A stretch of 64,000 nucleotides of DNA from Bacteroidia bacterium (GTDB lineage Bacteria; Bacteroidota; Ignavibacteria; SZUA-365), in the NCBI GenBank assembly GCA_027493955.1, contig JAOSJT010000001.1, forward strand, positions 5,070,552 through 5,134,551, written 5' to 3'. The notes under the pieces were generated by a model. It was given only the letters and a program-made list of their open reading frames with translations. It was not told the origin of the DNA and did no database searches. Of the stretch, positions 4,466 to 63,470 are shown one piece after another. A program made the translations under genes and the position numbers. The number at the start of each line of letters is the position of its first letter. Position 1 is the first letter of the stretch.

Positions 4466-4577
4466 ACGGCCCGAAATGTTCATTTCAGGCCGTCTGCATT
4501 GGGTTTGGGCACTTATGTGCTCGTACACGCGAGGTCCGCCTCAGGCGGAGAATCCCTGAACCGCTGATGAAGAGTCA
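4466..4577 (-). repeat. terminator plus tRNA-Lys 3'-end scar
   Basis: A hairpin (ACGGCC at 4466, complementary GGCCGT ending at 4493, inner arms GAAATG/CATTTC) faces an A6 run. Read on the minus strand it is a rho-independent terminator. It is followed by CTGCATTGGGTTTGGGCACTT, TATGTGCTCGTACACGCGAG and GAATCCCTGAACCGCTGATG, running to AGAGTCAGC at 4577. This is the same order as the 3' end of the intact tRNA-Lys (63334-63443). The T-loop is replaced by the palindrome TCCGCCTCAGGCGGA, which is also present at 7216-7230. It is best read as a displaced tRNA 3' end. Confidence 0.7.
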
Positions 4578-4659
4578 GCAAGGACTGCCATTATTGACAT
4601 GGATATGCATAAAAGTACCCCAATGTCGTCATACTGACCCGCCAAGTAAACGTATTGCA

Positions 4660-5355
4660 TCATGGTAACTTCGAGAGTACATCCAGTGAAAAGCGCTCCG
4701 CTTGCGAACACTGTTCGCGTACGCTAGCCCACGCGTCCTCGATTCTCTTGCTGTGATTCCTGTATTCAAGAGCATTTTTCTGTACCCGCTCGGCTACGGG
4801 TAGAACTCGAAGTTGCGTTGCGAGATTTGTGTTGCATTCAAGATTACTCGCAAGTGAGTGACCTCGACCGAATACCGCAGCAACGAGCCAGGCCTCTGAT
4901 GCCTTGGAAGGTACACACAGTATAGTTCTGGGTCCCGGTGCTGTGAGTCCCGCCCACGCGAGCAAGCGACTTCGCATCGCGTCCACACTTCCTTGCGGCG
5001 GCGGACATGGAAGCACGCAGGGCAATATCGGCCATCGCCGGTTATTTGCTTCTTCGGAGATTTTCTGACTCACGTCCTCATACCTGTCGTCTGCAACGTC
5101 CGCGTCCACATGAAGGATGAAAAGGTCAAAGTCTGGGAGCGTCGGATCGGTCTCAAGACTGGGATACCCGCGCTCCGTAAAATCAAGGCACCAGCGGAGC
5201 ACGCCACCCCATCCGGCACCCAGTTTCGGGCGGGTTTTTTCGGGTTGAAGTTGACTTAGTGTGAACGTTGTGGGGATGATCGCTCGCAGGGCGGATTCAA
5301 TGATGACCGTATCCGTATCCCCCTCGACGACAAGAGCTATGCGTAACTCAGACAT
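4660..5355 (-). CDS. TOPRIM-like protein (DUF4276/RloB-like), partner of the upstream AAA ATPase
   Basis: This 231-residue protein carries TOPRIM-like motifs: ALVVEGDTD at residues 7-15 (glutamate E11) and FDLFILHVDADVADD at 76-90 (DxD at 84-86). SKASEAWLVAAVFG in the second half recalls DUF4276 proteins. TOPRIM partners of AAA ATPases often act as nucleases in abortive defence, as with OLD/Gabija GajA and the AriB subunit of PARIS. I place the start at 5355, where ATGTCTGA overlaps the stop of the ATPase gene, rather than at 5412 inside that gene. The overlap implies a two-gene operon transcribed leftward. Nuclease or toxin activity is inferred from the fold; no target can be read from the sequence. 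Confidence 0.7.
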   Translation of the reverse strand: MSELRIALVVEGDTDTVIIESALRAIIPTTFTLSQLQPEKTRPKLGAGWGGVLRWCLDFTERGYPSLETDPTLPDFDLFILHVDADVADDRYEDVSQKISEEANNRRWPILPCVLPCPPPQGSVDAMRSRLLAWAGLTAPGPRTILCVPSKASEAWLVAAVFGRGHSLASNLECNTNLATQLRVLPVAERVQKNALEYRNHSKRIEDAWASVREQCSQAERFSLDVLSKLP

Positions 5356-6532
5356 TGGGAACGGCTCCGAGATTGCCCATAGCCCAAAGGCGTGAGAGCG
5401 GATACTCCTCATTCAACCTGAGTAACTCCGCAGAGACAGTGATGCGTCGAATCGTCGTATATCCGGCGCTGTTACGTTCCACAGCGAATAGACGGATCTC
5501 ATCGTCTTCGAGATCGAGTCCATCTAACACGGTTGGATTATGAGCCGTAAAAAGAAGCTGTCGATTTGGATCACTTGATCGAAGCCATTCACCCAGACGT
5601 TCAACCAGTCGCGTCACGAGTCGTGGGTTCAGTGCGGAATCGAGATTGTCGATCGCGAACACCGCAGGTGATGAAGATGACAGACACAGAATGGCGGCGA
5701 AAAGGACGTAGAGTGCTCCTTCGCTTGCGTCATACGCTGTGAGCGAATTTCGGGACTCAGCCATGAATCGATCCGTGAATTTCAAAACCCGTTTTGCCCG
5801 GGGAATTGCAGGCGAAAGCAGTGCGCCAGCGGAATCGGTTGCAGCCACGTCGCTCACCCAGTCGATAAGTGCCAAAACATCCGCGATTTCCTCTTCTCTC
5901 ATCTCCCGCTTCAAAGAATCAAATCCCTCGGCGAGACCGCCTCCTGCGAGCCCCACGGGCAACCGTGTTTGCGAATCAGGGACCGTCGCTCGTAATGCCG
6001 GTGTATTCGGAGTGTAAATCGCATAACCCTGCAGCGTCTTCATCAGAACGGAAGCCGGATCGTCGGTTTGAAGATTCACGAGTTTCAGGGCCGATAGCCC
6101 CGCCGTTTTATCAAAATTCTTCTCGTCCTGCACTTTGTCCCGCACTCCGCGACTCACGATTTCCTTGCCGCCTGAGGAGAGATACTCGGTCTTGAACGAC
6201 CAGGCCGGCTCAGGTTTATCGAGCGGATTAAGCAGAGACACACGGAAGATTGTATCGGATGCACTCCGCGCTTCCAGCATGATGTCTGGTGGAATCCTCA
6301 TACCAGCAAACGAACTTTTAAACAAGCGGGGCAGACCAGCCCGAACACCACGGCGGATGATAGCCTCGTCGTCGACTCTACCGGCCGCGGCTGCACTGAG
6401 GACACCCAAAGCCTCGAGAATGTTGCTTTTTCCAACTCCATTGCCGCCGATAAAGCAGTTCACGCGCCCTAATTCGACTTGCTGATCTACGATAGACTTG
6501 AAGCCTTTGATATGGATCTCACGGAGTTTCAT
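5348..6532 (-). CDS. AAA_21/AAA_15-type (RecF/OLD-like) ATPase of a two-gene defence-like operon
   Basis: This is a 394-residue SMC-like ATPase. It opens with the family signature MKLREIHIKGFKSI, then Walker A GGNGVGKSN at residues 29-37. The C-terminal half has the Walker B region VFAIDNLDSALNP followed by LLFTAHNPTVLDGLD (H-loop/switch). The ATG at 6532 matches the conserved N-terminus; the longer frame to 6583 adds residues unlike the family. Its stop overlaps the start of the TOPRIM-like gene. ATPases of this class sense invasion or DNA ends and control an effector nuclease (OLD, PARIS AriA, Gabija-like logic). A PARIS-like two-gene defence pair is the best reading, but the partner is not the canonical DUF4435. 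Confidence 0.8.
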   Translation of the reverse strand: MKLREIHIKGFKSIVDQQVELGRVNCFIGGNGVGKSNILEALGVLSAAAAGRVDDEAIIRRGVRAGLPRLFKSSFAGMRIPPDIMLEARSASDTIFRVSLLNPLDKPEPAWSFKTEYLSSGGKEIVSRGVRDKVQDEKNFDKTAGLSALKLVNLQTDDPASVLMKTLQGYAIYTPNTPALRATVPDSQTRLPVGLAGGGLAEGFDSLKREMREEEIADVLALIDWVSDVAATDSAGALLSPAIPRAKRVLKFTDRFMAESRNSLTAYDASEGALYVLFAAILCLSSSSPAVFAIDNLDSALNPRLVTRLVERLGEWLRSSDPNRQLLFTAHNPTVLDGLDLEDDEIRLFAVERNSAGYTTIRRITVSAELLRLNEEYPLSRLWAMGNLGAVPNV

Positions 6533-6714
6533 GCGATTGCCCGTTGCGACTGTGGATTGAGCACGGAATTTCCGTGCATACAAACCGTTCGGTGACGTAT
6601 ATCAGGATTCCAAACGGCTACTGCAAGGAAAAATACGTGCTCATTCTCCGAATGGCAAGGAAACAATGGAAATTGGGTGCGGATTCTGGCTGTATTCAAC
6701 TGCGAGAAAGCAAT

Positions 6715-6900
6715 GAGAGGTATGGCAAAAAATCGACGATGATCAGAAATCAACTTCCGATCGAACATTGGCACAAATGGATTGGTGAAGCGAGCCTCGG
6801 CGATGCGATCACGGACCGTCTGATTCACAATGCGTACACCATGACGCTGAAAGGAGATTCAATGAGAAAGCGGCTCGCCGTGACCCTCAATTTGAAGTAA
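6715..6900 (+). pseudogene. istB: IS21-family istB (transposition helper ATPase), 3' remnant
   Basis: Only the C-terminal ~60 residues of an IstB protein remain: ERYGKKSTMIRNQLPIEHWH, then IGEASLGDAITDRLIHNAY and LKGDSMRK. Full IstB is about 250 residues with an N-terminal Walker A, which is absent here. The open frame extends upstream to 6544, but that part does not resemble IstB and crosses the promoter region of the neighbouring ATPase gene. No istA or IS21 ends are visible. This is a fossil of an IS21 insertion inside the accreted DNA. Confidence 0.75.
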
Positions 6901-7138
6901 AGCGACCACCTCTCATGTCAGCAACACCATCGTCACTGCGCTCCGATCTGCTGGTACGTTTGCGCAGGAAGTACAGGTCGCTTTCGCAGGAGTACACATC
7001 GAATCGCCCGCATCCCCCTATCCCGCGACATTCGGGGTTCTGGACGAGTGATCTTCTTCCTGCTTTTTTCCTACCCACCCCCGTCACACCCCGTCACGAT
7101 CAGGCAATTCTCAACAAATCCTGCTGCTGCAACCCCAA
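6901..7138. other. intergenic stretch, no supported gene
   Basis: Roughly 240 bp between the istB remnant and the terminator/tRNA scar. Open frames here are short, lack ribosome sites and have no recognisable content. Confidence 0.5.
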
Positions 7139-7174
7139 GAAAAAAACGGCCCTTCTCTTACGAAAAAGGCCGTT
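7139..7174 (-). terminator. rho-independent terminator belonging to the displaced tRNA-Lys 3' end
   Basis: Arms AACGGCC (7145-7151) and GGCCGTT (7168-7174) pair. The A7 run at 7139-7146 becomes a U-tract when read leftward. It holds the same position relative to tRNA-derived sequence as the terminators at 4466-4493 and 63334-63367, but with a different stem. Confidence 0.75.
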
Positions 7175-7230
7175 CTGCATTGGGTTTGGGCACGTTTGTG
7201 CTCGTACACGCGAGGTCCGCCTCAGGCGGA

Positions 7231-7256
7231 GAACCCCTGACCCGCTGATTAAGAGT
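7231..7256. repeat. attL core (26-bp direct repeat shared with the tRNA-Lys gene)
   Basis: Identical to 63415-63440, spanning the tRNA T-stem to anticodon loop on the minus strand. Just outside (7191-7230) the displaced tRNA 3' end continues with CTCGTACACGCGAGG. The T-loop is replaced by the palindrome TCCGCCTCAGGCGGA. Confidence 0.85.
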
Positions 7257-7344: not shown

Positions 7345-8349
7345 ATGAAAAGCAAAGTTTGGCTGCAAAAGCGAGCCAATGGGTATTACTATGCTCGCTA
7401 TCAACTACCCGATGGAAGTGAAAAATGGCGGTCCACAGGCAAGAGGACAAAACGCGAGGCGATGGCGTTTGTCCAGGCGCACGCGGAACCGCAGAAGAAG
7501 CTGGTACCGGTTCGACTCGTCACATTCGCCGACCGTGTATGCGAGTATGTCAAAGCGAATCAGGCATATAGAACTTTCCTGTCGTACGATCTGGCGTTGA
7601 GGAGCTTCATTCGAATCATCGGTGATAAGATGCTTGAAGACGTCACCCGCGCGGATGTAGACAAGTTCAAGATTGCACGTATGTCCGAAATCTCATCGAT
7701 CACGGTGAACATACAACTACGAAGTCTTCGAGCAATCTTCAATCTGGGCGTACGATGGGAACTCATGCAGTCAAATCCGTTCACCAACGTCAAGATGATT
7801 CGCCTTCCTGAACGGGTACCGGTCTTTCTGACTCGCGACCAGTTCAGCAAGCTGAGGGTCACGATTGATGGACATTGGATGCAGGATATCATCGTGTTCG
7901 CGGTCTGTACGGGCATGCGGCAAGGCGAGATACTAAACCTTCAATGGCGACAGGTCGATCTCGAACGCCGTGTCGTTCATGTGACCAATACCGAAAGTTT
8001 CAAGACCAAGACCGGAAGGGGACGAATAGTGCCGCTTAATGACTTGGCCGTCAAGACCTTGGAAGGACGATCGAGGAAGTGGGATCTCGTGTTCACCTAC
8101 AAGGGGCGACCAATACGGGCGGACAGTCTCAGGCACCTCTTCAAACGCGCCGTACGCCGTGCGGAACTCCCCGAGGCCATCCACTTCCACTCCCTTCGTC
8201 ACACGTTCGCTTCATGGCTCGTACAGGACGGCGTATCGCTGTTTCAGGTGGGACGCCTGCTTGGACATTCGGACTCCAAGACGACCGAGATTTACGCCCA
8301 TCTGCAGCCGGAAACGATGCATGATGTGGTGAGCCGATTGAAGTTGTGA
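7345..8349 (+). CDS. int: tyrosine recombinase/integrase
   Basis: This 334-residue phage-type integrase has a basic N-terminal arm-binding region (residues 1-55), a core-binding domain (about 60-155), and a catalytic domain with all expected residues: R192 in TGMRQGEILNLQW, a beta-hairpin lysine near 220-222, H282-x-x-R285 in HSLRHTFASW, G307-H308 in LLGHSD, and the nucleophile Y317 in TEIYAHL. It should catalyse integration and excision at the adjacent tRNA-Lys core. ATG 7345 follows AATGAGGGTCC, a modest ribosome site. It is the first gene inside attL and is followed by its own terminator. No excisionase is recognisable nearby. Confidence 0.95.
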   Translation: MKSKVWLQKRANGYYYARYQLPDGSEKWRSTGKRTKREAMAFVQAHAEPQKKLVPVRLVTFADRVCEYVKANQAYRTFLSYDLALRSFIRIIGDKMLEDVTRADVDKFKIARMSEISSITVNIQLRSLRAIFNLGVRWELMQSNPFTNVKMIRLPERVPVFLTRDQFSKLRVTIDGHWMQDIIVFAVCTGMRQGEILNLQWRQVDLERRVVHVTNTESFKTKTGRGRIVPLNDLAVKTLEGRSRKWDLVFTYKGRPIRADSLRHLFKRAVRRAELPEAIHFHSLRHTFASWLVQDGVSLFQVGRLLGHSDSKTTEIYAHLQPETMHDVVSRLKL

Positions 8350-10024: not shown

Positions 10025-11980
10025 ATGGAGCTGCAGAGAACACGGCCGAAAAAACTGTCCCGCAAGGAAGCGGAGTTCGAGAAACAACGTTTCGAATTCT
10101 ACCAGTCCGAGCGGGGCGGCCATCTTGACAAGCGGGCGATCGAGTCATGGGAGCTCTATCACAACGACCGCGACGGCACCAACACGCAGTACACCAAAAA
10201 GCAGATCGAGGCGCTTGAACACCTGAAGTCGCCCGTGGTGAGCATGAACATGATCATGCCCATCATCCAGAACCAGAAGGCGGTCCTCACGGCCGACAGA
10301 CCCACCGGGCGGGTGATGCCGTCGTACGGCGAGTACGACAAGCGGGTGGCGAAGCTCTACGACGCCCTCCTGGGAGCCATGTGGCAGCGGTCCTACGGCG
10401 ACGCGCACTACAAGAAGGCGATCAAGGACATGCTGATTACCTACATCGGCTGCATGATCGTCGAGCCTCAGACATTCTACCGCAGGGGAAAGTTCAACCT
10501 CACATTCGATCACGTCAGCTGGCAGGACCTCTACATCGACCCGTCGGCCAAACGCAGCGGCCTGTGTTTCGAGGACGCCGAATGCATTTACGTCGCGAAG
10601 GTCATGCCGAAGCGCAAAGTGCGGAACATCTACGGTTTCGTGCCGGAAGACCGGGGGAACTTCATCAAGACCGAGTGGAACGCCACGGCCGAAGAACAGG
10701 ACAACGAGAACGTCCTGATACGCAACGCCTACGAGAAGGTCTACGGCATATACTGCCTCCTGAACGTCACGAACCCCGAGGCAGAATCGCATTACGTCAC
10801 CCGGCGGGTGTTCGCATCCGAAGCCGAGCTTGACGCCTTCCGCAAGAAGTATCAGGCGAAGCTCGTACGCTATACCGAAAACGTCTACATGCGCCGCCGC
10901 ACGATCGTCGGTTATGAGGACATGATCGAGGAGAAGATGCTTCCCCTCACGGTGTACCCCATGGCCGTCTATACGCCCGACGATTTCGACAATCCCTTCG
11001 GCAAGTCGCCCGTCGAATTTCTGCGCGAGATGCAGAAGGCGATGAACAAGTTCATCCAGACGACCATCCTCAACGCCAACGTCGGTTCGCACATTCGCCT
11101 CATCGCCGCCCAGGGTTCGATCATCAACCGTGACGCCGTCGTCAAGAACGGCGCTGCCGCCGGCGGCCTTATCGAATACAAGCCAGACCCCAACCTGCCG
11201 AATAACGGCGCGCCGACACCGCTGTACCCCGCGCCGTTAGCGGCCGCATGGTTTCAGCTGGGGAATTTCATGAAGGACGCCATGGAGTATTCCGCTGGCC
11301 GTCCGGCATTCACGCAAGGGGACCCGTCGCAGTCGCCGAACACTGCCACGGCATCGAGCCAAATCGCATCCTTCGCAGACCTTCGCCCTCGTGACATCCG
11401 TTCGCGCTGCGAGACCGCCACGGCGATGATGTACAAGGCGGCGGTCGAATATATCAACTACTACGGCAACCGCGAGGAGATCGTCCGCTACATCGATGAC
11501 CGCGACGAGATCGTCGACATACCGCTTGCGGACATACTCGACGACAACAACCTCATCGAGCACGACGTGGTTATGAGCACCAAGTCGTCCCTTCCGACCG
11601 ACCGGGTGGAGATGCGCAACGACATTCGCCTGGCGCTGCAGCAGACGGCCGATCCCGGCTGGCAGAAATTCCTGTTCCTCGAAAACATCGAGATGTCGGA
11701 TTCGCCGGCCGCCGAACGCATCCGCAAAAAACTGGACATGTTCGAGGAAATGAACGGCCAGATTCAGCAGCTACAGGAACAACTGGAAGAACGCGACAAG
11801 CTCATCGACCGTCTGTCGACCGAAGTGATCGTCGGCAAGCAGCAGGTGGCGGTCGCGAAGCTTGACGGCGACGTGAAGGCCATGAAGGCCGAAACGAAGG
11901 CCAAAATGCAGGTCGCCTTGGCGAAGGTCGAACAGGGCGACGTTGGCGAGCAGGCACAACAACAGATCGAGGAAATGTAA
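10025..11980 (+). CDS. phage portal protein (P22-type)
   Basis: This 651-residue protein resembles the P22-like portal family, the dodecameric ring at the capsid vertex through which DNA is packaged. The N-terminal domain has the usual SPVVSMNMIMPIIQNQKAVL segment near residue 70. HVSWQDLYIDPSAKRSGL follows near 160, and the crown/stem part has QKAMNKFIQTTILN. The last ~70 residues (about 575-640) are a charged coiled coil (IQQLQEQLEERDKLIDRL). The frame is intact and GC-rich, like the right-end replication operon. The stop overlaps the next start by one base (TAATG). No terminase, capsid or tail gene accompanies it, so it is a surviving piece of a morphogenesis module. Confidence 0.85.
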   Translation: MELQRTRPKKLSRKEAEFEKQRFEFYQSERGGHLDKRAIESWELYHNDRDGTNTQYTKKQIEALEHLKSPVVSMNMIMPIIQNQKAVLTADRPTGRVMPSYGEYDKRVAKLYDALLGAMWQRSYGDAHYKKAIKDMLITYIGCMIVEPQTFYRRGKFNLTFDHVSWQDLYIDPSAKRSGLCFEDAECIYVAKVMPKRKVRNIYGFVPEDRGNFIKTEWNATAEEQDNENVLIRNAYEKVYGIYCLLNVTNPEAESHYVTRRVFASEAELDAFRKKYQAKLVRYTENVYMRRRTIVGYEDMIEEKMLPLTVYPMAVYTPDDFDNPFGKSPVEFLREMQKAMNKFIQTTILNANVGSHIRLIAAQGSIINRDAVVKNGAAAGGLIEYKPDPNLPNNGAPTPLYPAPLAAAWFQLGNFMKDAMEYSAGRPAFTQGDPSQSPNTATASSQIASFADLRPRDIRSRCETATAMMYKAAVEYINYYGNREEIVRYIDDRDEIVDIPLADILDDNNLIEHDVVMSTKSSLPTDRVEMRNDIRLALQQTADPGWQKFLFLENIEMSDSPAAERIRKKLDMFEEMNGQIQQLQEQLEERDKLIDRLSTEVIVGKQQVAVAKLDGDVKAMKAETKAKMQVALAKVEQGDVGEQAQQQIEEM

Positions 11981-12402
11981 TGAGCACCACAGCCACCGAC
12001 ACCGCGACGACGACCGAACAACAGGCGCCCCTGGGCGGGCTGCGTCCGCAGGACATCAACCTGTCTGATGCGCAGTACGAACAGCCGGGCGGCCGCGAAC
12101 GCGCGCTGGAAAACACGTCGGTGGACTGGCTTCCGAACGATCCCTTGCTCGCATTTTTGAATGACTCGACGCATCCGAATCAGGATACCGGACTTCATCC
12201 GTCATCGGAGGAGCCGTTTGCCATACCGCGGCCCGAACGGGACCAGCAGCAGCAAACGCGGCAATTCCAGACGGACCAGTCTGCCCAGCAGACGCAGTCT
12301 ACGACGCAGACACAACAAACGGCACCGACGGCCGCACAACAGTCGACGCAACAGACGCCCCAGGGCGAGACGCTGGAAGGCCTCAAGGCCCAGCTCGCGT
12401 AG
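11980..12402 (+). CDS. scaffold-like phage protein, truncated by an in-frame TAG
   Basis: This 140-residue product is dominated by Gln and Thr (QQQQTRQFQ, TTQTQQTAPTAAQQ). In position and composition it resembles a capsid scaffolding or head-assembly protein downstream of a portal gene. It starts one base inside the portal stop. The TAG at 12400-12402 falls within a helix that continues in frame: LEGLKAQLA, stop, then LQEVKTLVETQDYKDAMAVL. The natural protein was therefore longer. Without suppression the C-terminal helical part is lost. No homology is claimed; the scaffold role is inferred from context. Confidence 0.55.
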   Translation: MSTTATDTATTTEQQAPLGGLRPQDINLSDAQYEQPGGRERALENTSVDWLPNDPLLAFLNDSTHPNQDTGLHPSSEEPFAIPRPERDQQQQTRQFQTDQSAQQTQSTTQTQQTAPTAAQQSTQQTPQGETLEGLKAQLA

Positions 12403-12751: not shown

Positions 12752-13528
12752 ATGAGAACCGATTTTGACCGCATGTTCGATTCCCCGTTTGACGTTCATA
12801 CGCCAATTGTGAAAGAACAGTATACCATCACGCAAGGGCATATCGTGCAGTGGGGCGTACTGGCGATTCGTCCGCATTGGAAAGAAGCACAGAAAGTTGA
12901 GATCCAGAACCCGGCGACTTCCATTGACGAAGCCGTGCCTTGGCATGCAGGGGTCGTCATGGACCTCATTGCGTTACAAACGATAGATCATCGAGGTATT
13001 GTTCGAAGCATGTATTCGGAAACAGGGGATGGCGGTGTGACGCTGCCGTTCTGGCCAAACTATCTTTCCATCCGGACCAAGCTGGAAAAACGCGAGGTGG
13101 AAAGCGGGTGGGCGCGCGAGTACAGTGAGGAAGGCCGCATTCTTCGATACGAATTTCCACAGGGCTGGAACGAGATGGAGCCCGCAAGAAGGCGGGATTA
13201 CTGGATAACCATGCTAGGTGGCAGGTTCGGTTTCCAACGCGGCGGTTTGGCGCCAGGACGGACATTCAGCGCCTTCTTCACCCGCAACAAATCTAAAACG
13301 ACCGGCAAATGGTACCAGGACGCCAAAATGAGCTATCAGGACGAATCTGGTCATTGGCATTCCGACTGTCCAGTAATCCTGGGCGCGGTCGATTTGAGCC
13401 TTCTCCAAAAGATTAACGCCAAGTGCGATGAACTGTATGGTTTGCGAGCGTCGCAATGCGATACCAGTGCGATGAGCTCCTCTGTCAGCATTCACAAACT
13501 GATGGATGATCCCAATATCGGGTTTTGA
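12752..13528 (+). CDS. paralogue of the 56080 replication-operon protein, with SSB-like acidic C-terminal tail
   Basis: This 258-residue protein is clearly related over its length to the product of 56080-56883. Shared landmarks are YTITQGHIVQWGVLAI / YTLAHGHQVKWGVLEI, VPWHAG / VPWRAG, WAREYSEEGRILRYEFP / WARQYSREKRKLVYDLP, LGGRFGF / LGGRYGF, and KTTGKWYQDAKMSYQD / ESTGKWYSDVKKVYKD. It ends LMDDPNIGF, an acidic tail finishing in a hydrophobic pair, like the protein-interaction tip of bacterial SSB (DDDIPF). The start has a strong AAGGAG site. It stands alone, next to the deletion scar. A DNA-binding or replication role is inferred from the paralogue's operon; the family is unknown to me. Confidence 0.65.
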   Translation: MRTDFDRMFDSPFDVHTPIVKEQYTITQGHIVQWGVLAIRPHWKEAQKVEIQNPATSIDEAVPWHAGVVMDLIALQTIDHRGIVRSMYSETGDGGVTLPFWPNYLSIRTKLEKREVESGWAREYSEEGRILRYEFPQGWNEMEPARRRDYWITMLGGRFGFQRGGLAPGRTFSAFFTRNKSKTTGKWYQDAKMSYQDESGHWHSDCPVILGAVDLSLLQKINAKCDELYGLRASQCDTSAMSSSVSIHKLMDDPNIGF

Positions 13529-19957: not shown

Positions 19958-21219
19958 TTCGATCCGATTTGATGTGAGAGACTCGTTTTGCCACGCAAGG
20001 AGTAAGTATCGTGATTTTATCCATTATCAACAAAAAAGAAAAAAATGTTGATATACGATGACAGGGCGGCTAAGAGACCTTACGCGGGTTTCGCCCCAAC
20101 GATGTTCACGGACAGACTAATCGAATGGAAAAAATGGCAGCGCGAGAATCTTCCCTCTAGATGACTCCAGCACGCAAAAATGATATTAGTTGGGACGGCA
20201 ATCGCACGACCCTGCCGACAAGTATTGGCGATGCTGATGCATCACAAGCCCGCATTGAATTCGAACGCAGACGCGCAAGGATCCATGAATTAGACTGGTC
20301 GAGGGTGGGGCGGGGGAATTTCACCCCCTGCTCTAGTCCTCATCGTTTAGCGCCCTTCGCATTCATGCAGCGTTCAGTTATATCTGACTACAAGTGACAG
20401 AACCGTAAGTTCGGTCGCCCCGCTAGAGCTGCCCCAAGAGCCATTACTGCAACGACGAGTTCCATAGTGACCTCCTTCAAAAGAAATTGAATTATGGTGA
20501 CAAGGGCTCTGCAGCCGGAAAAAACTGAAAGGATTACACCAATGGTTGGACAAACGATTGAGCTTGTTGTGAGTTGAGAAGGAGTCTCAACGATCAATTC
20601 AAATCCAATATAGATAATTTCGCTTTATGCAGATAATGGTGTTGATGATGGGCTATTGGTGACGGGCAAACCTCTCGAGTACAGCCCTTCGCGAGTAATG
20701 GCTATAGATAGCGATGAACCCCAGAAGGGTTGGTCAACCCAATGCCAATTACCCGCATATTGCGACCCTATCCTCGTGCGACCCTATCCTCGATGAACCA
20801 CCCTTTTATCTTTCATCGGAGAACCGTACATTCTCCGTACAGATTCCAGCCAACACATGCGAGGTCGTGGTGCTGAATCAGCAGTTTGTAAAACCATGGG
20901 GAGGCATTCAAGTACGCTTGAATGGATGGGATAAATGCTGATTTCGATCCCACGTATTCTTCTTGCCGAAATTCTTCCACACGGTGCTACCTTTCCGAAT
21001 GATGAAGCCCTATGCCGATTCGTTGCGGAGCATTCTAGACGGGAGGTTGCGTGCCGTAGATCAGGATTGAGGGGGATTTGGCACTTATGAAGTTTGGTGA
21101 GGCTGATTCTGCCCGCAACTTGCTCTCGCGAGCAGCAAAAATATTCATGGCAACTCAAAATCTGATGCTGGTGCTGATTGGTGAGGCGCCAACTGATACA
21201 GAACTGGGAAAATACCAAC
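19958..21219. other. 1.26-kb gap with one possible small ORF (20045-20164)
   Basis: No convincing gene of normal size. An ATG at 20045 opens a 39-codon frame whose end (MFTDRLIEWKKWQRENLPSR) looks like real protein and may be a fragment of a larger gene. Other frames (20161-20397, 20388-20597 minus, 20714-20941) lack ribosome sites and conserved content. Promoters for the leftward pair and for hsdM are presumably here. Confidence 0.4.
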
Positions 21220-23912: not shown

Positions 23913-24526
23913 GCGCACATTGTACCGCCACCCCGCTGCCGCAGCTCACCGACAAAGTGGCGACGCTCGCATCACGCGTCGACGGACACGTCAAGAAGAT
24001 GGGAGCCAAGCTGGACACCCCTTCCCGGATTCAACCGCCGCTGTCGGTTGAATTCACAGGCTCGACCAGTTGGCCAATAAATCTGTCGGCGCTTCTGGAG
24101 ACGCTTCCGCGCAGTTTCACCCTCGGCTGGTCCCATTATGTCGAATTGCTCACGATCAACGACACCGCCGAACGTCGTTTCTACGAGATCGAAGCCGACA
24201 CCAACCAGTGGAGCGTCCGCGAACTCACCCATCAGTATCTCGGCCAGATGCAGATCTATGTGAATTATTTCGACCGCCACGTGAAGCTGCCGGAGGAACT
24301 CCCCACCATCGGCATCGCCCTATGCCACCGGAAAAACGACGCCCTCGTGGAACTCACTCTGCCTAAAGACGCCAATATCTTCGCCTCCAAATACCAGCTT
24401 TACCTGCCGTCCAAAGAGGAACTGAAAGCCCGCTTGAAAAGGATCACGGAGGAGCTTGAACACGGCTCACGCGGTGACGCGGAGAGTGTGGAGAATGGAG
24501 AGTTGAAAATGGAGAATGGAGAATGA
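23909..24526 (+). pseudogene. chimera: duplicated hsdM tail fused to internally deleted YhcG/DUF1016 nuclease
   Basis: The first ~30 codons (ATPLPQLTDKVATLASRVDG, then HVKKMGAK) are a second copy of the HsdM C-terminus. The rest matches YhcG/DUF1016 proteins in two pieces: LGWSHYVELLTINDTAERRF up to SVRELTHQ, then directly LGQMQIYVNYFDRHVKLPEE to KYQLYLPSKEEL. In intact family members more than a hundred residues, including the PD-(D/E)XK active centre, lie between those pieces. They are missing here although the frame is kept. The product may be made but should lack nuclease activity. It overlaps hsdS by ATGA, so it may still couple translation to hsdS. Confidence 0.7.
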
Positions 24527-31753: not shown

Positions 31754-34700
31754 ATGGATGCAGTAGGGCAGAGAGAGAAAAAAACGCAGCAGCGGGTTGT
31801 CACGTTATTCCGCGACACACTCGGATATGAGTATTTGGGCGACTGGACCGATCGGGAAGGCAATAGCAACATCGAGGCGGAGTACCTGCAGGCGTTTCTC
31901 CTGAAGTCCGGGTATGACGAAAACCTGATTAAGCGGGCGCTCTACTCCGTCACAAAGGAAGCCGGTGATACAAGTAAAAGCCTGTATGACCGCAACCACG
32001 CTGTCTACGACCTTCTGCGCTACGGCGTGAAGGTGAAGCCCGCCGTCGGTGAACATACCATCGACGTATGGCTTATCGACTGGAAGATCCCGGAGAACAA
32101 TCATTTCGCAATCGCGGAAGAAGTGACCGTCGAAGCGAAGGACGAGAAGGCCCACAGCAAGCGGCCGGATATCGTGCTTTACATCAACGGTATAGCAATG
32201 GGAGTTCTGGAGCTGAAGCGGTCGACTGTATCGGTCGCCGCAGGCATTCGGCAGAACCTCGACAATCAGAAGAAAATATTCATCCAGCACTTTTTCTCGA
32301 CCATGCAGCTTGTCATGGCGGGCAACGACACCGAGGGACTTCGTTACGGGACGATCGAGACTCCGGAGAAATATTACCAGACATGGAAAGAGGAAAGCCC
32401 GGTTGCTAACCTGCTTGACAGACATCTCATCCAACTTTGTACGAAAGAGCGATTCCTCGAACTGATACATGATTACCTGCTCTTCGACGCCGGGACGAAA
32501 AAACTCTGCCGTCACAACCAGTACTTCGCCGTTCGGTCTGCACAGGAATATGTGCGGAAGCGCGAGGGCGGCATCATCTGGAACACGCAGGGCTCGGGCA
32601 AAAGTCTCATCATGGTATGGCTGGCCAAATGGTTGAGTGAGAATATCACCGGAGCGCGCGTACTGATCATTACGGACCGCACCGAGCTTGACGAGCAGAT
32701 CGAAAGTGTATTCGAGGGTGTCAAAGAACATATCCACCGCACGAAAAGCGGTGACGACCTCATTTCCCGCCTGAACGCAACCACTCCATGGTTGATTTGC
32801 TCGCTCATTCATAAATTCGGGAACAAGGAAGAGGGGGTTGAGGTCGGCGACATCGAGAAGTACATCGAAGATGTGCGCAAATCGCTGCCTCCCGGATTCT
32901 CACCCAAGGGCGATCTGTTTGTGTTCGTCGACGAGTGTCATCGCACACAAAGTGGCGAGCTCCACAAAGCGATGAAGGCGATACTTCCGGGTGCCGTGAT
33001 GATAGGCTTCACGGGTACGCCTCTTCTGCAAGCGGACAAGAAGCGCAGCATCGAGATATTCGGCGGTTACATCCATACCTACAAGTTCAACGAGGCCGTG
33101 CAGGATGGTGTGGTTCTGGATTTGCGGTACGAAGCACGCGAGATCGATCAGAACATCACGTCGCAGGAAAAAATTGATCAGTGGTTTGAAGCGAAAACCA
33201 GCGGCCTTACAGATCTCGCGAAAGCGCAGCTGAAGCAGCGTTGGGGTACGATGCAGGCGGTGTTGAGTTCGCAGGACCGGCTCAAGAAAATCGCCGACGA
33301 CATCATGATGGATATGGAAACACGTAACCGGCTCAAGAGCGGGCGCGGCAATGCCATATTGGTGGCCGGCAGCATCTATCAGGCGTGCAAGCTGTTCGAA
33401 CTCTTCGACAAGACCGACCTCCATGGCAAATGCGCTATCATCACTTCCTACGTACCGAGCATCGCAAGTATCAAAGGCGAAGAGTCGGGCGAGGGCGAAA
33501 CGGAGAAATTGAATCAGTACGCCATCTATCAGAAAATGCTGTCCGATTGGTTCAACGATCAGCCTGAAAAAGCTGTGAATCGGGTGGTGGAATTTGAGCG
33601 TGTGGTCAAGAAGAAATTCATCGACGAACCAGGACAGATGAAGCTTCTCATCGTCGTGGACAAACTGCTCACCGGTTTCGATGCACCTCCCGCGACCTAT
33701 CTGTACATCGACAAGCAGATGCGCGATCATGGACTATTCCAGGCCATCTGCCGCGTGAACCGGCTCGACGGCGAGGACAAGGAATACGGCTACATCGTCG
33801 ATTACAAAGACCTTTTCCGTTCGCTCGAGTCCGCGGTGCAGGAGTACACCAGCGGCGCACTCGATGGCTACGACAAGGACGATGTGGCGGGACTCCTGAT
33901 CGATAGACTTGCGGCCGCAAGGCAGGATCTGGAGGAGGCGCTTGAGGCCGTCAGGGCTCTGTGCGAGCCTGTGGAGGCTCCCAGAGACCAGCTGGCTTTC
34001 CAGCACTACTTCTGCACCAGAGACTCCGGCAACGCCGAGCAGCTCAAGGAGAATGAACCAAAACGCTTGTCGTTGTACAAACTCACCGCGGCGCTGATTC
34101 GTGCATACGCGAATATTGCCAACGAGATGAAAGAGGCCGGGTATGGCAAAGCTGAGATTGAGACCCTGAAGGCCGAAGTGGCATTCTACGAAAAAGTGCG
34201 CGACGAAGTAAAGCTCGCGAGTGGCGACTACATCGACATGAAAATGTATGAACCGGCGATGCGCCATTTGATCGACACCTATATCCGTGCAGAGGAGAGT
34301 GAGAAAGTCTCGGCCTTTGACGATATGTCGCTCGTCGAATTGATCGTGCAGCGGGGTCCCGAGGTCGTGAACGTGCTGCCCGATGGATTGCGGAAAAATG
34401 AAACCGCCACAGCCGAGACCATCGAGAACAACGTACGCAAGCTCATCATCGATGAACATCCGATCAATCCGAAGTACTACGACAGGATGTCGGAATTGCT
34501 GGATGCGCTCATTCTGCAGCGCAAGCAGGAGGCGATCGACTATCAGGAATACCTCGCGAAGATCGTGGAGTTGACCAGGCAGGCAAAGAATCCTGCGACC
34601 GGAGAGAGCTATCCGGCGACCATCAACACGTCAGCGAAGCGTGCACTGTTCTACAATCTTGGTAAGGACGAAAAGCTCACTCTCGACGTTGATACTGCAG

Positions 34701-52046: not shown

Positions 52047-52523
52047 TCAGAACGGGCAGTCTTCGAGGACGACGCGCTCTTTCGGCACGTAGGTCCGGAA
52101 GCGTGGCGCCTCTGCCGACGCCTCGCGCATGAAGTACGCGCTGTGCGGTATGCCGTCCGCATCGACGATGGTCGCCGTGAGTCCGCTCGTGAGGTTCGAC
52201 GTGAACTGGCGGGTCGCGGGCAGCGTCAGCCAGTAGGCCTTGTACGCCTCGATGGCTGCCGCATCGGCGTCCGGATTCTCGGCCTTGTATTTGGCGAGTG
52301 AGTCCTGCCATGCGGCATCCAGCTTGTCCTGCTTGCCCTTCAGCTCGTCGGCGCGAAGCTGGGCGTCACGCGGCTTGAGGAAGGACTTGTAATCCTTGCC
52401 CGAAAGCAGAAGACTGTCGATGAGGACGACGCTGTAGGTCTTGCCCGTGGTCGAGACTTCCGACAGCATGCTGCCGGTCGCCTGCATCTCTTTGCCGTTG
52501 ATGATGACGGTGAACTGTGCCAT
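52047..52523 (-). CDS. phage-like protein with SSB-like acidic tail (158 aa)
   Basis: It opens MAQFTVIINGKEMQATGSML with beta-strand character and has a helical middle (ADELKGKQDKLDAAWQDSLA). It ends VVLEDCPF, an acidic-hydrophobic tip like the SSB terminus. ATG 52523 is preceded by GGAGGCTATC. It is first in a leftward operon of small proteins. A DNA-replication accessory role is plausible given that two other proteins of this element end in similar tips; there is no recognised family. Confidence 0.6.
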   Translation of the reverse strand: MAQFTVIINGKEMQATGSMLSEVSTTGKTYSVVLIDSLLLSGKDYKSFLKPRDAQLRADELKGKQDKLDAAWQDSLAKYKAENPDADAAAIEAYKAYWLTLPATRQFTSNLTSGLTATIVDADGIPHSAYFMREASAEAPRFRTYVPKERVVLEDCPF

Positions 52524-52580
52524 GATAGCCTCCAAACTTGCAATGAACGGTCCAAGCTTCGGGTCATTCCCAAAGGACCA

Positions 52581-52622
52581 AAAAAACAAGCCTGAAAACC
52601 CCACAACGGGGCACTCAGGCTT
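52581..52622 (-). terminator. rho-independent terminator
   Basis: AAGCCTGA (52588-52595) pairs with TCAGGCTT (52615-52622), with an inner CCCC/GGGG pairing. The A6 run at 52581-52586 is a U-tract on the minus strand. It ends a transcript coming from the right, probably that of the 65-codon ORF. Confidence 0.75.
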
Positions 52623-53908: not shown

Positions 53909-54033
53909 GGATCCATACGACCGACCGCAGAGTCCGCCGCGATACGTCCGCAAAACGTCTGCGGGATGCCCTGTGGGAGTTTCTTGACCCATCCATCTAC
54001 GAAGAACTCAAGGAGATTTTCCGGAATGAATAA
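53806..54033 (+). CDS. small hypothetical phage protein (75 aa)
   Basis: It reads MEEPFDECRLIESIAKGHRS onward, with a basic middle and a helical acidic C-terminus (WEFLDPSIYEELKEIFRNE). It overlaps the zinc protein gene by ~100 bases and the RecT-like gene by ATGAATAA. The overlaps and GC content match the operon. No family is recognised. Confidence 0.6.
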   Translation: MEEPFDECRLIESIAKGHRSGRRIIIHGPHGDALRIHTTDRRVRRDTSAKRLRDALWEFLDPSIYEELKEIFRNE

Positions 54034-54952
54034 CGAACCCGCAACAGTCCAGGAGCCCGCGGCCGCCCTTCAAACGCTGCCGAATGTAGCGATGACGAAG
54101 GCCGTGGACGCTCCGTTGGCCCTCGCGCGCAGGCCCTCGTACGACCTGCCGCTGGCCGAACTGGCCGAATCGATGTACCTGTCGGGCATGTTCAAAGACC
54201 TCAAAAGCGTCCACCAGGCGAAGGTGAAAATACCCGCAGGACGCGAGCTGGGCGTCCCGCCGGTGCAGGCGATGAACTCGCTGTACATCATCGAAGGCAA
54301 GGTCGCAATGGCGGCCGCGCTCATGGGCGGACTCATACTCCGCGACGGACGCTACAAGTACCGCGTAACGCAGCTGGACGACTCGGGCTGCACCATTTCG
54401 TTCTACGAACGCAACGACATGCAGGAATGGACCGCGTGCGGACCGCCGTCGACGTTCTCGCGCGCGGACGCGCAAGTGGCGCAGCTTTTGGGCAAGGAGG
54501 TGTGGAAGAAGTGGTTCCGCAACATGGCCTTCTCCCGCGCGCTTTCGAACGGCGCACGGTGGTACTGCAGCGACATCTTCTTAGGTCCCGTGTACGTGCC
54601 CGAAGAACTCGGCGCCATCGTCAACGAGGACGGCGATGTCGTGACCGTCGAGATACCGACGCAGGCCGACGGCGAGCCCAAACCCGACCGCAACGACTGG
54701 CAGCGCGAAGCCGCCAAATCGATCTACCCGCGCGTCGCGCCCAACGTGGCCGAACGCGTCCGCGAAAACGCCCGCAACCCCGACATCTCGAGCGAAGACT
54801 TTACGTCCTTCCTCGTCGACGTGGCGAAGATCCACGGCATTTCCATTCCACCACCACCGCAACAACCGCAAGAGGCCAGCTATGTCGACATCGCAGCAGA
54901 TGAACTCCCCTTCGGACAACATCCCGCTACCGAAGGCGAAGCTCATGCTTGA
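54026..54952 (+). CDS. RecT-like phage single-strand annealing protein
   Basis: This 308-residue protein has the pattern of a phage RecT-type recombination family: LAESMYLSGMFKDLKSVHQA, VKIPAGRELGVPPVQAM, LYIIEGKVAMAAALMGG, ISFYERNDM and FRNMAFSRALSNGARWYCSD. Such proteins anneal complementary single strands at phage DNA ends. A proline-rich linker (ISIPPPPQQPQ) leads to a tail with DELPF, another acidic-hydrophobic element. ATG 54026 overlaps the previous stop. It sits at the head of the replication genes. Assignment is by remembered motif pattern. Confidence 0.65.
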   Translation: MNNEPATVQEPAAALQTLPNVAMTKAVDAPLALARRPSYDLPLAELAESMYLSGMFKDLKSVHQAKVKIPAGRELGVPPVQAMNSLYIIEGKVAMAAALMGGLILRDGRYKYRVTQLDDSGCTISFYERNDMQEWTACGPPSTFSRADAQVAQLLGKEVWKKWFRNMAFSRALSNGARWYCSDIFLGPVYVPEELGAIVNEDGDVVTVEIPTQADGEPKPDRNDWQREAAKSIYPRVAPNVAERVRENARNPDISSEDFTSFLVDVAKIHGISIPPPPQQPQEASYVDIAADELPFGQHPATEGEAHA

Positions 54953-55136
54953 GGTCTCAGGAGGCGTCATAACGTCGATGCTCGCGAGCGAACTTGTCGA
55001 AGTCACGATCGTCGACCGGGACTTACAGAAGACCGGCGGCGCCGTGGGCGAGGTCCTGCAGACCACCATGGCGTTTCCCATCGCCGACTTCGAGGAGGCC
55101 GTCATGGCCATCAGAAACCAGATCATCGAGGGATAA
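54882..55136 (+). CDS. small phage protein (84 aa)
   Basis: It reads MSTSQQMNSPSDNIPLPKAK to VMAIRNQIIEG, a compact alpha/beta protein. It overlaps the RecT-like 3' end by ~70 bases; ATG 54903 is an alternative start that shortens the overlap. The primase-like gene starts on the next base after its stop. The function is unknown. Confidence 0.55.
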   Translation: MSTSQQMNSPSDNIPLPKAKLMLEVSGGVITSMLASELVEVTIVDRDLQKTGGAVGEVLQTTMAFPIADFEEAVMAIRNQIIEG

Positions 55137-56096
55137 ATGCTGCATCTCAAGGAATTCGCGCCGGTGGGCATCTGGAAGCGGCGCTTCGGAGCGACGGAGT
55201 ATCAGCCGTCTCAGCGCATCTGGACGGTCCCGAAAGGACTCGGCTTCATGCCGGTGTACGGCTCGCTGTACTCGTGGGAGATCCCGGCGAAGGGCGAAGA
55301 CCCCAATTTCGCCATGCCGATCATCCATGAGATCATATGGGACTTCGATTCCAGCCTCGGCCTTGAGTACGCGCAGGAAGACGCCCGCAACTTCGTCACC
55401 TATCTCGCCGAAATCCACGACGTGGACTGCGGGACCATCGGCATGTACTTCAGCGGTCAGAAGGGCTTTCACATCGTCCTGCCGATCGCGTCCATCGTCG
55501 ACATGAACGACCAGGCGGACGGACTCTGGGGCGTGCGTCCGCAGATCATCCGCAACTTCGCCCTGCAGATCGCGACCGGCTTCAAGACGCTCGACCAGTC
55601 GGTGTTCGACGCCCGCAGGCTTTTCCGCTTGCCGTACGCCGTCCACCCGGGATCGGGACTCTACAAGACGCCCCTGGACTTCGCGCAGCTTCGCGACATG
55701 ACGCCGGACGACATACGCGAGTACGCGAGCGTGAGCCAATGGGCGGACCCTGTGGTGTTCAACACACCAGTGCCGTCGCCCTCGCTCTACGAGCTGCTGC
55801 TGCAGACGAGCGAGACGCTTGAGGCCTCGCATGAACCCGCACCCAGGGCGTCGCTTGCCGCCATGTTCGACATCGCCGCGCCTGGCGAACGCAACGTCCG
55901 CGCAACGCAGCTCGCCGGCGTCCTCGTCAAGGCCATGGACGACCTGCCGATGATCCGAGAGATCATGAAACTCTGGAACCGCCAGCACAGGCAACCGCTA
56001 TCGCAACACGAACTCGACGTCGTCACCACCGGCGTCTACCAACGATATCACACCAAAGCACACACAAGAAGGAACCACCATGTCCCAGGATTTTAA
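55137..56096 (+). CDS. archaeo-eukaryotic-type (AEP) primase
   Basis: This 319-residue protein carries the AEP small-subunit motifs: catalytic DxD in IIWDFDSSLG (residues 66-75), FSGQKGFHIVLP (103-114, the S-x-K-G-x-H motif), and RLFRLPYAVHPGSGLYKTPL near 160-179. AEP enzymes make primers, and sometimes extend DNA, in plasmids, phages and archaea. It probably initiates replication of this element. It is followed by the SSB-tailed protein (16-base overlap) and a DnaB-like ATPase, a compact replication set. Confidence 0.85.
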   Translation: MLHLKEFAPVGIWKRRFGATEYQPSQRIWTVPKGLGFMPVYGSLYSWEIPAKGEDPNFAMPIIHEIIWDFDSSLGLEYAQEDARNFVTYLAEIHDVDCGTIGMYFSGQKGFHIVLPIASIVDMNDQADGLWGVRPQIIRNFALQIATGFKTLDQSVFDARRLFRLPYAVHPGSGLYKTPLDFAQLRDMTPDDIREYASVSQWADPVVFNTPVPSPSLYELLLQTSETLEASHEPAPRASLAAMFDIAAPGERNVRATQLAGVLVKAMDDLPMIREIMKLWNRQHRQPLSQHELDVVTTGVYQRYHTKAHTRRNHHVPGF

Positions 56097-56951: not shown

Positions 56952-57242
56952 ATGCCACCACGCCAATCACGAATAAAGCCGCATCTCTACAGCCGGGACC
57001 TTGAGTACGCCATTATGCGCGCAAGCCAGGCGGCCATCAGCGCGGAAAAGAAAGCGCTCATATGGTTCTTCGCCAATTGTATGGACTTGGGCTACACCGA
57101 GGCGCAGATCACCGACGCCTTCGCGGCGTTCTCATCGGACCCGGCGAAAAACACACTGGGACTGCGGTACTTCAAGGCGTATCTGGCCAAGTACGTCGCG
57201 GGCGACACGCAGTCCACAACCAACTACAGCGAAGCATGGTAA
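56952..57242 (+). CDS. small phage protein (96 aa)
   Basis: It reads MPPRQSRIKPHLYSRDLEYA onward. A basic N-terminus precedes a helical body (KKALIWFFANCMDLGYTEAQ) and a C-terminal helix (LRYFKAYLAKYVAG). Its stop overlaps the DnaB-like start (ATGGTAA). Position directly before a DnaB-type gene suggests a helicase-loader or primosomal accessory role, but this is context only. Confidence 0.55.
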   Translation: MPPRQSRIKPHLYSRDLEYAIMRASQAAISAEKKALIWFFANCMDLGYTEAQITDAFAAFSSDPAKNTLGLRYFKAYLAKYVAGDTQSTTNYSEAW

Positions 57243-58561
57243 AACTCAACGACCCGAAATGGACGGTGCTTCGGCACTTTATCGACACAGGTGATCGTGC
57301 GGGACTGGCCTCGCTCAATCAGTCGTACTTCACCGGCCTTGCCCGCACCGTCTACAACATCGCCTGTGAGCAGATGGAACTCTCCATGCCCGTTATCCGC
57401 GAGGCCATGTCCGTCGCGATGGACCCGGTCAACGCCGACGAGGCGTACCGGCTGCTCATGGACAACCGCCCCGACGACTACGGCATCGACAGCTACATCG
57501 CCGCGCTGGCGAAAGCATGGATGAACTATCGCATCAAGGAATCGGTCGACTGGGCCGCCGAACAAATCGGGGAAGGACAAAACCGCCTGATCGTCGCCGA
57601 AGAACTCATGTCGCGCCTGTCGACCGTTCACGACGCCAAGGAGCTCAAGTCCCTCGAAGAAGTCTTCACCGTGATGGAAACGCTCGAAGGGACATCGATA
57701 CCGACAGGAATGCGCGAACTCAAGGACATCGGCATCGACAGCTGGCAGATGGGCAATCTGATGATACTCGCCGGCGACACCGGCACCTTCAAGACCACGG
57801 CCGCCGTGAACCTGAACATGGCCGCGCTCACCGCCGATCCCGAGCTGCACGTGATTTACTTCATGAAAGAGCAGCCCTTCCACGAGGTCTGGTACAAGGC
57901 ATTCACGTACTGGTCGCCGTACAGCTACACGCGCATCCAGAGTCAGATGAACGCCCGCAACGCCGAACTCGTAAGAGACGTGCGCCGCAGCCTCACAGAC
58001 GAAGCCTTGGGCGTCCTGCAGCGCTTTCACGTCGTCGACCAGAACGACTTCTCGCGCCCGGGCGACGTTGCCAATCAGCTGCGTCATTACGCATCGAAAT
58101 ACAAACGCGTCATGTGGGTGGTCGATTACATCACCCGCCTGGACTTCGGTGGGCGTCCGGAGCATTTCAACAGCTACTACACCGCCGGCCTCGAAGTCCT
58201 CAAGAACATCGCGCTGCAGACGCAGTCCTTCGGCATCATCATCTCGCAGTTCAAGGACGGCTGGAATATCGATTACAAATCGTCGAAGCCGGTGAAGATG
58301 TTTCCGAACCGCTCGCACATCATCTGGTCGTCGGAAAACAAGAACCTCGCCGCGTACATCCTGCTGCTGTATCACCCCGGGACGTACTTCGACTATCCGA
58401 AACGCTACCTCTACGGCGTCATGGGAAAGGTGCGGCATACCGACAGCGCCCGCCGCATGAACTGGATCATCGACGGCGCCAAGCAGAAGGTCCTCACGCC
58501 CAGCGACGAGGAAACATTCAACATGAACACACTTGTCTCACAGTTCAAGAGCACGCAATAA
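57239..58561 (+). CDS. DnaB/RecA-fold replicative helicase-like ATPase
   Basis: This 440-residue protein has an N-terminal helical domain, then ATPase Walker A LAGDTGTFKTTAAVNLNMAA near residue 176, Walker B-like MWVVDYITRLDFGG near 295, and IALQTQSFGIIISQFKDGW near 325. KHVPN-type elements appear as RSHIIWSSENKN. The P-loop is a variant (GDTGTFKT instead of GxxGxGKT), as in some phage DnaB relatives. It presumably unwinds element DNA with the AEP primase. ATG 57239 overlaps the previous stop; the frame extending to 57062 is internal to the upstream gene. Confidence 0.78.
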   Translation, partial: VKLNDPKWTVLRHFIDTGDRAGLASLNQSYFTGLARTVYNIACEQMELSMPVIREAMSVAMDPVNADEAYRLLMDNRPDDYGIDSYIAALAKAWMNYRIKESVDWAAEQIGEGQNRLIVAEELMSRLSTVHDAKELKSLEEVFTVMETLEGTSIPTGMRELKDIGIDSWQMGNLMILAGDTGTFKTTAAVNLNMAALTADPELHVIYFMKEQPFHEVWYKAFTYWSPYSYTRIQSQMNARNAELVRDVRRSLTDEALGVLQRFHVVDQNDFSRPGDVANQLRHYASKYKRVMWVVDYITRLDFGGRPEHFNSYYTAGLEVLKNIALQTQSFGIIISQFKDGWNIDYKSSKPVKMFPNRSHIIWSSENKNLAAYILLLYHPGTYFDYPKRYLYGVMGKVRHTDSARRMNWIIDGAKQKVLTPSDEETFNMNTLVSQFKSTQ

Positions 58562-63333: not shown

Positions 63334-63367
63334 AAAAAAATGCCGTAAAACGTTAATTTTACGGCAT
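63334..63367 (-). terminator. rho-independent terminator of tRNA-Lys
   Basis: ATGCCGTAAAA (63340-63350) pairs perfectly over 11 bp with TTTTACGGCAT (63357-63367). The A7 run at 63334-63340 gives the U-tract on the minus strand. It lies 30 bp beyond the tRNA 3' end and, by the island model, was brought by the element. Confidence 0.85.
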
Positions 63368-63397
63368 CTGCATTGGGTTTGGGCACTTATGTGCTCG

Positions 63398-63470
<73 letters not shown>

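Follow-up and report, generated by a model that had tools for sequence, protein, structure and literature searches.

Canonical SSBs dock on their partners through the free carboxyl group of their C-terminal tip, as seen in structures of SSB-partner complexes. Across five gp2.5 proteins, with identities to T7 down to 29%, only the final Phe is kept at the end of the tail. T7-type phage SSBs as a whole diverge down to approximately 15% identity with each other (Enc34 ORF6; PMC5686142), so that a missing sequence match to them, as in the family described here, is unsurprising. This family consists of three sequences in all, two of which are encoded in a single prophage-derived element and the third in the genome of a relative.

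The element, its borders and its cargo

The window analysed here, a stretch of 64,000 nucleotides, is part of a complete 5.24-Mb genome, the closest named relative of which among the genomes found is a Bacteroidetes MAG (MAG20; G009). The 3' part of the tRNA-Lys(CTT) gene is repeated three times in the window (4493-4575, 7174-7256 and 63367-63440), and the second and third repeats enclose a 56-kb element. Just inside the left att repeat (7174-7256, forward strand) lies the tyrosine integrase of the element (7345-8349, forward; PF00589, E = 2.2e-34), and inside the right end, where the att repeat lies partly inside the intact tRNA-Lys(CTT) gene and partly next to it (63397-63470; feature 63367-63470, reverse), sits a RadC gene. 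The 24-kb contig 22 of the MAG20 genome (JACZJN010000168.1; loci L009, L010 and L012) served as the reference for comparison. It has in common with the element a RecT gene, a small ORF, a primase gene, the SSB-like gene, a second small ORF and a DnaB gene, and further a DUF932 gene, a 157-aa gene, RadC and the portal gene, all at about 30-65% identity, and it is because of this common gene set that the element is classed as a prophage. The portal protein (10025-11980, forward) is 60% identical to L009 10315-12279, an ORF that itself matches the portal family PHROG 156 (E = 3.4e-34). It is followed by a scaffold-like gene (11980-12402, forward) that stops early at an in-frame TAG (12400-12402), with in-frame homology to the relative, in which the gene is intact, running on to about 12516. 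The capsid and later genes of contig 22 have no match anywhere in the window. The element is a defective prophage that carries a defence island and has lost most of its head genes.

The stretch at 21178-44999 includes type I RM genes (M at 21178, S at 24523, R at 31754), a methyltransferase gene (36105), DISARM-like DrmA and DrmB genes (39917 and 43134) and a YhcG-type nuclease gene; these defence genes occupy the place that would be expected for the capsid and tail genes of the prophage. A separate 2.7-kb insertion (4493-7256) lies between two of the tRNA-Lys repeats and holds an AAA ATPase gene with a partner gene, matching the candidate defence pair PDC-M31A/B; this insertion is a mini defence element in tandem with the prophage. 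Further out, at 917-2224, a 112-base tandem repeat is present in ten overlapping register copies. In another genome of the family (G002, contig 241; L025, 103-3187), RadC and, close by, a truncated ORF of this portal-like type are found, and this stretch is the remnant of a related prophage.

Two diverged homologues and a third member

The first of the two homologous proteins (P0001; 12752-13528, forward; 258 aa) is encoded after the truncated scaffold gene and ahead of the cargo, has its own AAAGGAG ribosome-binding site and ends in MDDPNIGF. The second (P0002; 56080-56883, forward; 267 aa) belongs to the replication module and has a Gly-rich linker followed by the tip FDEEAGF. A sequence-only reading of the window had described them as two divergent paralogues, homologous throughout and placed at opposite ends of the element. 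Homology over the full length holds, with 43% identity over 221 aligned residues (E = 1.8e-58) and approximately 40% end to end, as does the placement, the 12752 and 56080 genes lying approximately 5.5 kb and 7 kb inside the att repeats at 7174-7256 and 63367-63440, respectively. No further copy was found in the 5.24-Mb genome.

The term paralogue fares less well, given the third homologue. This protein, from contig 22 (JACZJN010000168.1), is approximately 56% identical to the 56080 protein and 38% identical to the 12752 protein, and its gene has the same neighbours as the 56080 gene, in the order RecT, small ORF, primase, SSB-like gene, small ORF and DnaB. A single copy was found in the MAG20 genome, on a contig that also has a major capsid gene of the SU10 type. 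Of the three proteins, the 56080 protein and the contig 22 homologue pair with each other, with the 12752 copy branching off outside them as the outlier, which was therefore not copied from 56080 after the two phages parted. The third-position GC of the 12752 gene (0.595, vs 0.74-0.87 in the phage genes measured) is an added argument for a separate history. Judged by sequence, the 12752 copy is an older homologue, either acquired separately or split off anciently, and no recent duplicate. Its frame is open for 258 codons behind a good ribosome-binding site, beside a truncated gene. Ratios of dN/dS of 0.23-0.46 (NG86, three pairs), with synonymous sites near saturation, point to purifying selection on the family.

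Searches for further members returned no homologue in IMG/VR (with a single sequence, an alignment and two DNA patterns) and none that was accepted in INPHARED or PLSDB (protein searches, also at E = 10). The search of genome contigs gave only the contig 22 relative, and none was accepted from 395 genomes of the phylum and 391 of the class. A weak match in one genome of the phylum search (G210, E = 5e-4) was rejected as chance, the ORFs listed there having no resemblance to the family, as was a match in a Paracoccus phage (E = 1), which lies beside a repressor gene in a phage that has its own SSB. Related phages were also sought via DnaB, RecT and the portal, and the RecT relatives found had other neighbours.

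Gene neighbours, profiles and C-terminal tips

As had been read from the sequence, the 56080 gene is flanked by a primase gene and, beyond a 96-aa ORF, by a DnaB-like gene. The module begins with a RecT-like annealing protein (54026-54952, forward; PHROG 561, E = 2e-11; homologue in L009), followed by a small conserved ORF of 84 aa (54882-55136, forward; homologue L009 2783-3067) and a PriS-type primase (55137-56096, forward; PF01896, E = 4.6e-6; PHROG 16345, E = 2.4e-17). The start of the 56080 gene overlaps the end of the primase gene by 17 bases, which suggests coupled expression of the two. Downstream, the 96-aa ORF (56952-57242, forward; homologue in L009), a rival candidate for a helicase loader, overlaps the start of the DnaB-like helicase (57236-58561, forward; PF03796, E = 9e-8; PHROG 19, E = 6.9e-23). 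The primase ends VPGF and AVGF were considered as docking tips and rejected, since the codons in question are those with which the next gene begins, read in another frame: the GF ends (55137-56096; L009 3067-4017) are a by-product of the overlap with the SSB-like gene and its conserved MxxDF start.

No member of the family matched any SSB family in Pfam, PHROGs or NCBIfam. With PF00436 (hmmscan) the family gave no match up to E = 1, and the host SSBs scored 109-135 bits with the same model. In the chromosome this model finds two SSBs; within the element it finds none. Comparison by hhalign with canonical SSB, gp2.5 and the Enc34 SSB gave probabilities of at most 1%, and below 1% for the T7-type proteins, from a shallow query profile (Neff 1.8), and because of this shallowness and the approximately 15% identity among true T7-type SSBs, the outcome of this comparison is weak evidence either way. 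AlphaFold2, run with the three sequences, gave low-confidence models (mean pLDDT 37.6 for the whole protein, 43.6 for the trimmed core), both with the order strands, helix, two strands, helix, which is compatible with an OB fold and also with many others. Foldseek and VIA-align searches with the low-confidence model stayed at noise level: the PDB matches, mainly MHC class I and kinesin chains (Z of at most 3.6), and the unrelated viral proteins from BFVD were set aside. The core of the 56080 protein comprises 230 residues, is rich in conserved aromatic residues and has no net positive charge.

The acidic-hydrophobic tip noted earlier is present on both proteins of the element, each closing with Gly-Phe, and the contig 22 homologue ends in DADPDLGW. 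The linkers of the three cannot be aligned and the last two residues (Gly-aromatic) are kept, so that an acidic-aromatic tip is conserved in three of three members behind a variable linker; the glycine-rich linker also described is found in the 56080 copy and the contig 22 homologue and is missing from the 12752 copy. A tail that varies among homologues had been named as a refutation in the sequence-only reading; checked against the third member, the tail proved to be conserved. All three tips carry only two or three acids before the terminal aromatic, with no long acidic stretch, and the Pro-Phe end of canonical SSB is replaced by IGF, AGF and LGW. Among 245 host ORFs (at least 150 aa, from twenty 20-kb chromosome stretches), 17 end in an aromatic residue, three combine this with at least two acids in the last eight residues, and none has the strict tip (those acids and a Gly/Pro-Phe/Trp end) that all three family members have. 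When the linker and tail of each member were shuffled, such ends arose at frequencies of 0.0001, 0.002 and 0.006; with a tip definition made post hoc and three related sequences, these counts and frequencies are a guide and no test. The host SSB ends in DKDDLPF and that of the MAG20 genome in DKEDDLPF, and given this DDLPF end in both, the family tip resembles the host tip without being a copy of it.

Two further proteins had been proposed as partners using the same docking mode, a proposal that our data do not support. The RecT-like protein does contain DELPF (54896-54916), yet internally, about 13 residues before the C-terminus, so that it lacks the free carboxyl group of the canonical tip, and the motif is altered in the relative. 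This DELPF resembles the DDLPF of the host SSB, and the aligned place in the L009 homologue reads QEPLF; none of the 245 host ORFs contains the motif [DE][DE]xPF (x being L, I, V, M or C), which makes the RecT case a curiosity worth noting. The 52047 protein ends in LEDCPF as reported (158 aa from its ATG, 52047-52523, reverse, this start being preceded by a good ribosome-binding site; longest ORF 52047-52604). It is an orphan for which no relatives were found in INPHARED, IMG/VR or 296 genomes of the phylum, and as one sequence with one tip it cannot be told from chance. The family tip itself, x-Gly-Phe/Trp, also differs from the Leu-Pro-Phe of the host SSB.

Candidate roles and known SSB systems

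Our data suggest, with slightly better than even confidence, that the 56080 protein is a candidate phage SSB of the element, which is its likeliest role given its position, the absence of a PF00436 match in the element and the anatomy of its tail. Of the non-canonical SSB family proposed from the sequence, this candidate stands without the partner set, supported indirectly by gene order, the lack of another recognisable SSB gene, the variable linker and the tip. In its favour, the same position by primase, RecT and DnaB recurs in two phages with genes at only about 34-65% identity, the tip is kept in three homologues despite diverged linkers, with no strict tip in the 245 host ORFs, and gp2.5 likewise combines a variable linker with an invariant terminal Phe; the PF00436 result for the element and the dN/dS range argue the same way. 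Against it stand the missing SSB profile match, the hhalign result, the lack of a credible fold, a short tip on a tail unlike the long acidic ones of gp2.5 and Enc34 ORF6, and a core that has no net positive charge, and the host SSB could serve the element. The position between primase and DnaB, with the start overlapping the primase end, would also fit an accessory factor of primase or helicase, such as a PriL-like partner or a helicase loader, with a tip that docks on the helicase or on host SSB partners. The primase is of the small-subunit type with no recognisable large subunit nearby and a 230-aa core is large for a single-OB SSB, but a tip and a flexible linker are not what loaders usually have, the ORF overlapping the DnaB start is the better placed loader, and no loader or PriL family in Pfam, PHROGs or NCBIfam showed any similarity, leaving this a secondary and rather unlikely reading.

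In both phages, RecT is encoded three genes ahead of the family gene. A nuclease or an SSB is a frequent companion of RecT in phages; in S-LBS1, for example, a VRR-NUC gene precedes and an SSB gene follows the annealing protein. The family could on these grounds be a recombination partner of RecT or of another DNA-processing enzyme, which we consider doubtful, as the invariant residues hold no nuclease motif by eye and no nuclease family was matched in Pfam, PHROGs or NCBIfam. Three sequences, a definition made post hoc and residues shared by descent could also mean that chance produced the tips and that the family is an early phage protein of some unrelated kind; with linkers fully diverged, Gly-aromatic ends with acids kept in every member and none in the host sample, this is very improbable. 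Equally doubtful as the recombination partner is the far-reaching version of the SSB reading, a phage SSB family with a core fold new among SSBs, a convergent SSB-like docking tip and two diverged versions in one element.

If the 56080 protein is an SSB, its core would bind the ssDNA exposed by the DnaB-like helicase, and its flexible linker and acidic-aromatic tip would dock on helicase, primase, RecT or polymerase; alternatively, as in T7 gp2.5, tip and ssDNA may be rivals for the same surface of the core. The 12752 protein would be an older relative of this type, left behind at the site of head-gene loss, and may be a spare SSB or may be doing little. If confirmed, this would be an SSB family overlooked by current profile libraries, and one from phages of Bacteroidota with next to no relatives among the phage collections searched; it would also mean that tail architecture and gene position can flag replication proteins where sequence search fails. 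Since the 12752 copy is still open next to head genes in decay, one may ask why two versions persist in a remnant that carries defence genes.

The contig 22 homologue is a true family member, approximately 56% identical to the 56080 protein with the same neighbours, and differs in its tip, which ends in Trp, in the capsid gene on its contig and in the single copy found in its genome. Canonical SSBs (PF00436; host SSB, DKDDLPF) likewise combine a core, a linker and an acidic tip with a terminal aromatic, the linker being Gly-rich in two of the three family members, whereas the family has no PF00436 match, a tip without Pro-Phe and a core twice as long. T7 gp2.5 and the T7-type phage SSBs (Enc34 ORF6, DUF2815) differ in having no detectable sequence relation to the family, a far more acidic tail and Asp or Pro, where the family has Gly, before the terminal aromatic; the acidic tail of Enc34 ORF6 ends in Val, whereas the family ends in Phe or Trp. 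They resemble it in being encoded in a phage replication module, in a size of approximately 200-270 aa and in a variable tail, which in gp2.5 closes, as in the family, in an invariant terminal aromatic after acids.
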